From: Demequina sp. NBRC 110053
GTDB lineage: Bacteria; Actinomycetota; Actinomycetes; Actinomycetales; Demequinaceae
Length of the DNA stretch: 64,000 nucleotides
Assembly (NCBI RefSeq): GCF_002090095.1
Contig: NZ_BBRJ01000003.1
Coordinates: 248,001-312,000 of the forward strand
Direction of reading: 5' to 3'
Below, piece by piece: positions 42,527-45,656 of this stretch. The notes beneath the pieces were generated by a model that was given only the letters and a program-made list of their open reading frames with translations, searched no databases and had not been told where the DNA came from. How positions within the stretch are numbered: the stretch's first letter is position 1; every line of letters starts with the position of its first letter. The translations under genes and the position numbers were made by a program.

Positions 42527-43717
42527 TCAGAAGAGCGTCGACTGGGGCTGGCCGTGCTCGAGCTCGACGAGATTCGCGCGCGAGCCCGTAGAACGCCACT
42601 CGCCGTTGCTGTCACGCGCGTCCGCGCGCGAGACGGCACCGTCGCCGGCGCGAGCGCCTTGAGCTTCTGACGCGCCGCCTCCGTGGGGTCCCCCTGCCTC
42701 GCCGGCTCCGGCGGCCGCCGAGGTGCCCGTCGTGCTGCCCATCGAGCCCGTGTTCGGATCCTCCGGCGCGCGCTCGAGCCCGTGGGCGCGGATGAGTGGC
42801 TTGATGCGCGCCGCGAGTCGCCTGCGATAGTCCTTGGGGGCGTAGGCGCCGTCACCGTAGAGCTCGCGGTAGCGCGGGGTGAGATCGGGGCGATGGGTGT
42901 TGAGCCAGCGCGCGTACCACTCCTTGACGCCGGGACGCAGGTGGAGCGCGGTGTACGTGACCGAGTGCGCTCCCGCGGCCTTGATCCGGCCAAGCGCCCG
43001 GTCCAGATGCTCCTCCGAGTCGGTGAGGAACGGCAGGATCGGCATCATGAAGACCGCGACGTCGAAGCCTGCCTCGGCGGCGGCCGTGACCGTCGCGAGG
43101 CGCGCCTGAGCGGTGGGAGTGCCCGGTTCCATGGACTGCTGAAGATCGTCGTCGAGGATCGCGATGGACAGCGCGAGGTCCACCGGGACGCTCTCACGGG
43201 CCTGGGCGAGGCGAGGCAGGTCGCGTCGCAGCAGCGAGCCCTTGGTGAGGATCGAGAAGGGGGTGCCCGACTCCGCGAGCGCGTCGATGATGCCGGGCAT
43301 GAGCCGGTAGCGACCCTCGGCGCGCTGGTACGGGTCGGTGTTCGTGCCGAGCGCGACGTGCTCGCGCCGCCACGAGCGCTTGCTGAGGTCCTTGCGCAGG
43401 GCGTCGACGACGTTCACCTTGACGATGAGCTGACTGTCGAAGTCGCGACCCGCGTCGAGCTCGAGGTACTGGTGCGAGGGCCGCGCGAAGCAGTACACGC
43501 AGGCGTGGGAGCAGCCGCGGTACGGGTTGATGGTCCACGTGAACGGCACCGCGCTGCCCTGGCCCACCTTGTTCAGCGCGCTCTTGGCGAGCACCTCGTG
43601 GAAGACCATCCCGTCGAACTCGGGCGTGCGCACCGATCGGACCAGGTTGTTGAGACGCGCAAGGCCCGGCAGAGCCTCATCGTTCTCCTTGGCGATCGCC
43701 TGCCCTTCCCACCGCAT
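42527..43717 (-). CDS. Rv2578c-like radical SAM protein
   Basis: A 396-aa protein. Cysteines 69, 73 and 76 (YRGCSHACVYCFARP) bind the 4Fe-4S cluster of radical SAM enzymes. GTNTDPYQRAEGRYRLMPGI and ILTKGSLLRRDL match the family related to spore photoproduct lyase. The last 80 residues are disordered and rich in Gly, Ala and Ser. ATG 43717 starts MRWEGQAI. A perfect LexA-type palindrome (43726-43741) lies 8 bp upstream, so it is probably DNA-damage inducible. The reaction is unknown; DNA repair is a guess from regulation and family. Confidence 0.88.
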   Translation of the reverse strand: MRWEGQAIAKENDEALPGLARLNNLVRSVRTPEFDGMVFHEVLAKSALNKVGQGSAVPFTWTINPYRGCSHACVYCFARPSHQYLELDAGRDFDSQLIVKVNVVDALRKDLSKRSWRREHVALGTNTDPYQRAEGRYRLMPGIIDALAESGTPFSILTKGSLLRRDLPRLAQARESVPVDLALSIAILDDDLQQSMEPGTPTAQARLATVTAAAEAGFDVAVFMMPILPFLTDSEEHLDRALGRIKAAGAHSVTYTALHLRPGVKEWYARWLNTHRPDLTPRYRELYGDGAYAPKDYRRRLAARIKPLIRAHGLERAPEDPNTGSMGSTTGTSAAAGAGEAGGPHGGGASEAQGARAGDGAVSRADARDSNGEWRSTGSRANLVELEHGQPQSTLF

Positions 43718-43725
43718 GCGGCCAG

Positions 43726-43741
43726 TCGAACATACGTTCGA
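43726..43741. promoter_or_regulatory. SOS box (LexA operator)
   Basis: TCGAACATACGTTCGA is a perfect match to the actinobacterial/Firmicute LexA consensus TCGAAC-N4-GTTCGA. It sits 8 bp upstream of the radical SAM start codon, in the spacer after TTGACT (complement of 43748-43753). It is 46 bp from the start of the divergent GNAT gene. LexA bound here should repress the radical SAM gene and could also affect the GNAT gene. Confidence 0.85.
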
Positions 43742-43787
43742 ACCTCAGTCAAGCGACGCGGCCGAGGCGCGGCGTAGCCTGGGGAGC

Positions 43788-44261
43788 GTGGACGGCTCCC
43801 CCGTCGACGTGCGTGCCGCGGATCCCGCCGACGCTGCCCTGCTGGCGTCGATGCTCGCGGACTTCAATGTCGAGTTCGACTCCCCCGGCCCCGACGTCGC
43901 CATCCTCGCACCGAGATACGAACGCCTGCTGGCGGGCCCCGACTTCTGGGCGGTCATCGCGGGCGATCCCGCCGTGGGCTTCGCGACGGTCGCCATGCGT
44001 CCCTCGGTCTACAGTGCGGGCGACGTCGCGTTGCTCGAGGACTTCTTCGTGCGCCCCGAGATGCGCAATCGGAGGGTGGGCGCAGCGATGATGGAGGCGC
44101 TGCTCGACCGGCTCGACCAGATGGATGCCGGGGCGCTCGAGGTGCAGGTGGACGAGCCTGACGCCGACGCGATGCGCTTCTACGCCCGGTACGGCCTGCA
44201 GCTGCGCGACGCGCTCACCGACGACCGCGTGCTCGTGCTGTGGCTGGACCTCGAGGTCTAG
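43788..44261 (+). CDS. GNAT family N-acetyltransferase
   Basis: A 157-aa GNAT domain. EDFFVRPEMRNRRVGAAMME carries the acetyl-CoA loop (R-N-R-R-V-G-A-A), and the late YARYGLQLRDAL helix is present. The start is GTG, 7 nt after a TAGCCT box, so the mRNA is probably leaderless. It is divergent from the SOS-box-controlled radical SAM gene. The substrate is unknown. Confidence 0.82.
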   Translation: MDGSPVDVRAADPADAALLASMLADFNVEFDSPGPDVAILAPRYERLLAGPDFWAVIAGDPAVGFATVAMRPSVYSAGDVALLEDFFVRPEMRNRRVGAAMMEALLDRLDQMDAGALEVQVDEPDADAMRFYARYGLQLRDALTDDRVLVLWLDLEV

Positions 44262-44759: not shown

Positions 44760-44834
44760 TTCTCTGTGGAGCCGCTCCACCGATGGCAACTCACCACAAC
44801 AGAGGAACCCAAAGGAAAGAGGAAGGTGACGACG

Positions 44835-45656
44835 ATGTCCACTCCACGCAATGCTCCGCAGGACAGCACGGTTCGAATGACCGCGGTCGGAATGCTCGCC
44901 GCGGGCGCCGGAGCCCTGGTCGCTCTCAGCGCGACCTGGGGGCTCGGCACGGCTGCCGCTGACGAGGGTCAGGACGCGACGATCGACGGCGCGAGGGCCG
45001 TCACCGTCGGCGCCGACGCCTCGGCCGCTATCAGCGCAGCCACGACCGGTGGGAAGGCGCACACCCCCCAGTGCGTCTACCCGCCGGTCGACGCGCCTGA
45101 CGACGGCGACGACGGCAACGGCAACGGCGACGACACGTTCGACGGCGTGCTCGGCGCAGGCATCACGGTCGATGTCGGTGACGGCGACGGGCACGGTTCC
45201 GGCGACGGCAACGGCAACGGCGACGGCAACGGCAACGGAAACGGGAACGGCAACGGCAACGGAAACGGTTCCGGCGACGGCAACGGCAACGGAAACGGTT
45301 CCGGCGACGGCAACGGCGACGGCAACGGCAACGGAAACGGTTCCGGCGACGGCAACGGCAACGGCAACGGTGACGGGAACGGCCATGGCGACTCCGGCTC
45401 GTCTGGCCCCCTGATCGACGCGGACGTCGACCTCGACGTCGCCGGCGACAAGGGTCACCTCGTTGATGCCGACGCCGATGTCCGCGTGGGCAACTCGAAG
45501 TCCGGCCACCACCGCAACCTGCTGGACGCGGACATCCTCACGGACGTCGACCACGTGCTCAAGGGCGACGTCGGCGCCGTCGTGGGCCACGCTCCCGACG
45601 ACTCGCCCGCGCTGATCGAGCTCGACGTCACCGGCCTGCTGGGTCACCACGACTGA
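44835..45656 (+). CDS. Secreted Gly/Asn/Asp-rich repeat protein
   Basis: A 273-aa protein. A hydrophobic segment at about 14-42 (VRMTAVGMLAAGAGALVALS) ends near AAADE and acts as a signal peptide or anchor. Residues about 95-190 are almost only Gly, Asn, Asp and Ser (GNGDGNGNGNGNG type). The C-terminus (about 195-273) is Asp- and His-rich with LIDADVDLDVAGDKGHLVDA and could bind Ca2+. No LPXTG sorting signal was seen. GAGGAAGG precedes ATG 44835. The gene lies 53 bp upstream of an ECF sigma gene. The function is unknown; a surface or matrix role is inferred. Confidence 0.72.
   Translation: MSTPRNAPQDSTVRMTAVGMLAAGAGALVALSATWGLGTAAADEGQDATIDGARAVTVGADASAAISAATTGGKAHTPQCVYPPVDAPDDGDDGNGNGDDTFDGVLGAGITVDVGDGDGHGSGDGNGNGDGNGNGNGNGNGNGNGSGDGNGNGNGSGDGNGDGNGNGNGSGDGNGNGNGDGNGHGDSGSSGPLIDADVDLDVAGDKGHLVDADADVRVGNSKSGHHRNLLDADILTDVDHVLKGDVGAVVGHAPDDSPALIELDVTGLLGHHD
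45100..45390 (+). repeat. In-gene hexanucleotide repeat (GGCAAC / GGCGAC)
   Basis: About 290 bp of near-perfect 6-bp units GGCAAC, GGAAAC and GGCGAC, with a higher-order unit starting GGTTCCGGCGACGGCAACGG. The reading frame is kept because every unit is 6 bp. Such arrays change copy number by slippage, so the linker length is likely to vary between strains. Confidence 0.85.

Follow-up and report, generated by a model that had tools for sequence, protein, structure and literature searches.

A conserved LexA box ahead of an Rv2578c-family radical SAM gene points to SOS control in Demequina sp. NBRC 110053

Gene organization and promoter structure

The analysed window, a 64-kb stretch of the genome of Demequina sp. 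NBRC 110053, harbours a radical SAM gene preceded by a LexA (SOS) box and a divergently oriented GNAT acetyltransferase ORF (Table 1). The range initially delimited for this locus runs to 43788, which is the first base of the GNAT ORF. As proposed in the initial annotation, the box matches the LexA consensus at every arm position (exact 16-mer) and is separated by 8 bp from the start codon of the radical SAM gene (ATG at 43717-43715).

Table 1 Features of the radical SAM locus (positions refer to the 64-kb window)
Feature	Position	Strand	Basis or remark
Rv2578c-family radical SAM gene, 396 aa, ATG start	42527-43717	minus	NF038135, 508 bits; Pfam Radical_SAM
CX3CX2C cluster motif codons (C69 to C76)	43490-43513	minus	cysteines invariant in 46 aligned sequences
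Intact counterpart (H71-V74) of the element insertion site	43496-43507	minus	site empty in this genome
-10-like element TCGACT, over one box arm, 17 bp from -35	43724-43729	minus	inferred from spacing
LexA (SOS) box TCGAACATACGTTCGA	43726-43741	no strand	perfect palindrome arms
-35-like element TTGACT	43747-43752	minus	window sequence; TTGAC conserved in other loci
Divergent GNAT acetyltransferase ORF, GTG start	43788-44261	plus	Pfam Acetyltransf_1

The palindrome TCGAACN4GTTCGA occurs in perfect form at this one place only within the window. Since palindromes with up to two mismatches number five against 2.87 expected from shuffling, only the perfect match is informative at the scale of the window. 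Across the 2.5-Mb genome, four perfect sites are present compared to about 0.05 expected from the base composition of the window (70 % G+C).

Reading toward the radical SAM gene, the upstream region has the arrangement TTGACT-17 bp-TCGACT-6 bp-ATG, with the LexA box lying in the spacer and extending over the -10 element. This sigma-70-like promoter agrees with the consensus in 8 of 12 bases, a value of 8 or more being reached by 22 of 1,000 random 63-bp stretches. From this geometry, a probably leaderless mRNA starting at or beside the ATG is predicted, as is repression via blocked polymerase: once bound to the palindrome, which lies in the spacer and overlaps the -10 element, LexA would exclude RNA polymerase from the promoter.

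Integration into the SOS regulon

The other three perfect boxes of the genome are located upstream of uvrA, recA and an imuA-like ORF, the latter being followed by an imuB-like ORF (both recognized by eye; Pfam assigned no family to the first). Three boxes with one mismatch lie near the start of lexA, and one-mismatch boxes are also found near ruvA and near a LysM gene that shares the lexA boxes. The encoded LexA repressor comprises the LexA DNA-binding and S24 domains. In view of these sites, the box of the radical SAM gene appears to be part of a normal actinobacterial SOS regulon: it is a promoter box of the TCGAACN4GTTCGA type that is kept in orthologues (see below), in a genome that encodes LexA and carries boxes at the lexA gene itself. 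Elsewhere in this genome, a gene for a GAF-ANTAR protein (L017:1259-2014) starts 19 bp from a one-mismatch LexA-like box.

SOS control of radical SAM genes is known in kind. A radical SAM protein is listed in the core Gram-positive SOS regulon (PMC7739468), and vnz_31145 of S. venezuelae was reported as a radical SAM LexA target with 19.97-fold induction by mitomycin C (PMC9380542). Thus, the core finding, a LexA-controlled radical SAM gene with about 20-fold mitomycin C induction, is already in print, and these genes resemble that of the window in having a LexA box ahead of a radical SAM gene. However, the box printed for vnz_31145 (TCGACCGTTCGCTC at -61; PMC9380542) is unlike the conserved box described here in both sequence and location, and vnz_31145 is likened to the present gene as a radical SAM LexA target rather than as an established member of the Rv2578c family. 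The name Rv2578c, a phylum-wide test of box position and a leaderless geometry do not appear in the available text of PMC7739468 and PMC9380542, and the literature searched yielded no report treating Rv2578c together with LexA. What is new, then, is the measurement of box position throughout the phylum, together with the promoter geometry and the elements lying in sense orientation behind a LexA promoter.

Conservation of the LexA box

Conservation was assessed in three partly overlapping samples. Sample (a) covers near relatives and the order with 64 loci (one per genome with a strong match, the window's own locus counted), five weak matches being left out and extra pieces of split genes not being counted as loci. 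Sample (b) adds 67 loci; the 396 genomes drawn across the phylum for this purpose yielded 101 rows with at least 365 bits (by eye), of which 67 were taken anew, 4 were already in the sample and 30 were left out. Sample (c) consists of 80 named loci from 31 genera (by eye), the best 80 of at least 596 candidates; at least five of the 80 are apparently shared with the other samples. Eight loci (L193 to L198, L280 and L281) stand outside the analysis. In sample (b), the search for the box covered the 350 bp preceding and the 90 bp following the projected start.

In sample (a), the box is perfect in 52 loci and found with at most one or two mismatches in 62 and 63, respectively, whereas palindromes with shuffled arms gave means of 0, 0.04 and 0.73 (largest 0, 1 and 8). 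The corresponding counts in sample (b) are 12 perfect, 40, 57 and, with up to three mismatches, 66 (shuffles: means 0.02, 0.08, 0.77 and 7.8; largest 9 at up to two mismatches). Among the best 80 of at least 596 candidates, i.e., sample (c), 28 boxes are perfect, and 59, 72 and 78 are found with up to one, two and three mismatches (shuffles: means 0, 0.03, 0.36 and 4.9; largest 6 at up to two mismatches). Single shuffles reach 33-38 loci at three mismatches, so that such matches count only with the position fixed. With this restriction, boxes with up to three mismatches lie 7, 8 or 9 bp before the projected start in 2, 53 and 20 of the best 80 of at least 596 loci, i.e., in 75 distinct loci, compared to 7 of 5,592 placements at 20-89 bp. 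Together with the boxes at lexA, recA and uvrA, this positional conservation supports the initially suggested SOS control and bears out that the box is kept upstream of Rv2578c homologues.

A chance palindrome, or the site of another regulator, would fit the abundance of two-mismatch palindromes in the window; since sequence and position of the box are conserved, we consider this reading highly improbable.

Deviating loci are few. The box of L214 is perfect and those of L265 and L266 have up to two mismatches, all three at projected distances other than 7-9 bp and in alignments that begin past residue 1. No box with up to three mismatches was found in Dactylosporangium vinaceum and Tsukamurella sputi (2 of the best 80 of at least 596 loci). 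In sample (b), the best match lies far from the start in L097, L103, L130 and L160, which were counted as having no clear box. In 7 of 11 large-genome loci taken as Streptomyces, the best match is a weaker form, GGGAACN4GTTCTA, located some 30 bp ahead of the projected start; two of the 11 have no box close to the start. LexA sites near Rv2578c in Mycobacterium had initially been suggested; by comparison, a box with up to two mismatches is indeed present in all 17 loci from Mycobacterium, Mycolicibacterium and Mycobacteroides that belong to the best 80 of at least 596, a set that does not include M. tuberculosis.

Among 18 selected weaker homologues from the phylum, two of which were classified (L162 and L164, both PA0069 family), a box with up to two mismatches precedes a single one (L179, 286.7 bits). 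On this sample, the LexA box tracks the Rv2578c family and not radical SAM genes at large.

The -35-like element is conserved as well: considering only loci with a box of up to two mismatches, TTGAC is found upstream of 64 of 117 boxes exactly and of 17 with one base off, as compared to 0 (exact) and 27 (one base off) of 116 in a control stretch 45 bp further up. In 62 of the 81 loci with such a motif, it begins 11 bp ahead of the box.

The initial annotation also considered that the divergent GNAT gene might share the control, in which case the palindrome would govern both genes and the acetyltransferase would be a co-regulated partner. The short distance of 46 bp between the end of the box and the GTG start of the GNAT ORF is compatible with this arrangement. 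However, a GNAT gene adjoins the radical SAM gene in only 3 of the 64 relative loci (one being the window itself) and in none of the best 80 of at least 596 loci, where the box is nearly universal, and the -35 and -10 hexamers at the box point toward the radical SAM gene. Shared control was thus rejected on conservation and is unlikely; the GNAT ORF probably lies outside the regulated unit. An operon partner was likewise rejected by clustering of ORFs in the best 80 of at least 596 loci: the radical SAM gene itself and clusters overlapping it by position make up the four most frequent ones, and the next occurs in only 16 of the 80. This clustering of the best 80 of at least 596 loci revealed no conserved neighbour pointing to a repair pathway. 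Further along the window (44766-45656), a 296-aa ORF begins with a signal-like segment and contains an extended Gly-Asn/Gly-Asp repeat tract (by eye).

The radical SAM enzyme

The window protein scores 508.1 bits against the model of the Rv2578c family (NF038135 rSAM_Rv2578c, cut-off 430), in agreement with the initial assignment as Rv2578c-like. The nearest other family is that of PA0069 (NF033668), against which it reaches 223.2 bits (cut-off 360) and whose actinobacterial members L162 and L164 lack a LexA box. PA0069 is an SOS gene of Pseudomonas; the literature searched contained no report on PA0069 together with LexA. Within the genus, the radical SAM gene is also present in a further genome (G041) and in Demequina litorisediminis (L093/L200), where it shifts frame at about residue 285 in the assembly.

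Like spore photoproduct lyase (SPL; SplB, TIGR04070), the window protein belongs to the radical SAM superfamily, and both share the CX3CX2C cluster motif and a weak sequence match. The initially claimed kinship with SPL is weakly supported: SPL is the best match among solved structures, if a weak one (E 7e-4 over 59 profile positions); the SPL model TIGR04070 does not list the window protein at E 0.001, and two family members (L149, L160) match it far below its cut-off. SPL furthermore possesses an extra conserved cysteine as hydrogen donor. In an alignment of 46 sequences (the window protein, 44 loci from the best 80 of at least 596, and one viral contig), C69, C73 and C76 are the only invariant cysteines (46/46), and a fourth conserved cysteine was not found. 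Other cysteine columns shared by at least four sequences are those at positions 220 (27/46) and 44 (10/46), both absent from the window protein.

Proposed mechanism and role

The combined evidence suggests a single-gene SOS transcription unit that is repressed by LexA and induced by damage, and whose radical SAM product most likely acts on damaged DNA bases or nucleotides, repairing or detoxifying them; we assign this reading a probability of roughly 0.8. Upon DNA damage, RecA would prompt self-cleavage of LexA and the radical SAM gene would be transcribed; that LexA binds here, that the gene is induced and where its transcript starts are predictions from the DNA sequence. The encoded radical SAM enzyme would carry a single [4Fe-4S] cluster at its CX3CX2C site, and its chemistry presumably differs from that of SPL, because no fourth cysteine is conserved.

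A role in DNA or nucleotide repair can reasonably be assumed, even if the chances that the substrate itself is DNA or a nucleotide appear about evenly balanced. Alternatively, the enzyme may be SOS-induced without repairing DNA, modifying instead a protein, RNA or metabolite in damage tolerance or cell-cycle arrest. The lack of a conserved repair gene beside it, the weak similarity to SPL, the lack of a conserved fourth cysteine in the family and the LysM gene on the lexA boxes, which suggests that the regulon also has non-repair genes, are in line with this alternative. On the other hand, LexA sites were predicted before splB, encoding an SPL homologue, in alpha- and beta-Proteobacteria (PMC3323433), where the LexA motifs differ, favouring a damage-repair role for such enzymes. 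SplB-like proteins were tied to SOS operons (PMC3765255). We regard the non-repair alternative as a genuine but lesser possibility. Among actinobacteria, the gene seems to belong to the SOS genes of wide distribution, and its SOS regulation offers a direct route to seeking the substrate of the enzyme.

Mobile elements and inteins within the gene

In two Demequina relatives (G037, locus L062; G023, locus L063), the radical SAM gene is split within the CX3CX2C motif, at codons 71-74 (HACV); the inserted elements measure 8,730 bp (L062:3232-11961) and 9,414 bp (L063, minus strand), respectively. A short repeat of codons 71-74 is present at both ends of the elements, and the reading frame carries on in the flanks. 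Both elements encode a large serine integrase (phrog_95) just within the left end, oriented like the radical SAM gene. They also share a phage major head gene, and the element of L062 has scaffold and adaptor genes in addition. Their small size (8.7-9.4 kb) suggests that they are satellites or remnants. The integrases share 45 % identity, whereas the DNA of the elements agrees at 89-91 % over stretches of 0.9 and 2.4 kb, pointing to two different integrases that use one common site.

The perfect SOS box is kept on the upstream gene fragment of the split loci. Here, the host promoter agrees with the consensus in 9 of 12 bases, as compared to 6 of 12 for the best candidate between left junction and integrase, a score that is the commonest value in random stretches. 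The host's box is the sole perfect one in each of the two 15-kb stretches, and the elements themselves contain a box with one mismatch (L063) or two mismatches (L062).

Smaller insertions or remnants occur in three further genomes. G017 (L065:2651-3290) has a tandem pair of 277 and 344 bp, in which small ORFs and three att-like sites are present, and G019 an insertion of 527 bp at the same site. In G028 (L064:3690-4500), a 5' gene fragment carrying an SOS box is separated by an ORF from an intact copy that has another SOS box. Relatives of the integrases of L062 (searched at E 1e-20) and L063 (E 1e-30) were not found in G017, G019 (an assembly of about 230 contigs) and G028; the small insertions may be decayed elements or non-autonomous cassettes.

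An att arm with up to three mismatches is present in 5 of 44 genomes of the genus, in four of them solely at the radical SAM gene; the fifth (G020) has a partial match at another place, and the genome of the window has no such arm. A search for the right junction in 297 genomes of the order retrieved only G037, which carries little weight, since the known carriers G023, G017 and G019 were absent from this draw. Sixteen att-like matches in viral contigs were judged as chance, the left arm being absent (7-12 of 12 positions differ); no related integrase was found in the stretches examined.

One may tentatively speculate, with more doubt than confidence, that these elements capture the SOS promoter: docking in sense orientation, they would place their integrase under the LexA promoter of the host, damage would raise the level of integrase, and excision would restore the split gene. 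The small insertions without related integrase, once in tandem, would then resemble cassettes captured behind a damage-switched promoter. If so, the integrase would be coupled in a simple way to DNA damage in the host, with no need for the element to bring an SOS box itself, and the radical SAM gene would act as a reversible switch. The literature searched, including the available text of PMC8270828 and PMC5296598, yielded no case of an integrase driven from a host SOS promoter, which leaves its absence unproven; the mobile element described in mutS (PMC5296598) offers a parallel for residence in a repair gene.

The serine integrase of the Streptomyces phage Samy likewise inserts into Rv2578c-family genes and is parted from its viral promoter upon integration (PMC12924846). 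Its target SVEN_6313 is, we infer, identical with vnz_31145. In the same report, a link of the gene to DNA repair is termed speculative in the available text, and the term SOS is absent from the main text. In contrast to the sense-oriented Demequina elements at codons 71-74, the Samy repeat corresponds to codons 27-34 in antisense orientation (11 of 11 loci taken as Streptomyces), such that the Samy integrase faces away from the SOS promoter; promoter capture was rejected for this phage.

Inteins seem to interrupt many members of the Rv2578c family: 25 of the 101 phylum rows (at least 365 bits, by eye) span more than 1,300 bp, which fits inteins, and three inspected loci (L045, L091 and L271) contain one at C76. 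The last of these, from Cryobacterium arcticum, had been a candidate for a split gene and was rejected as such on account of its intein. The intein site C76, the third cluster cysteine, adjoins the codons used by the serine-integrase elements.
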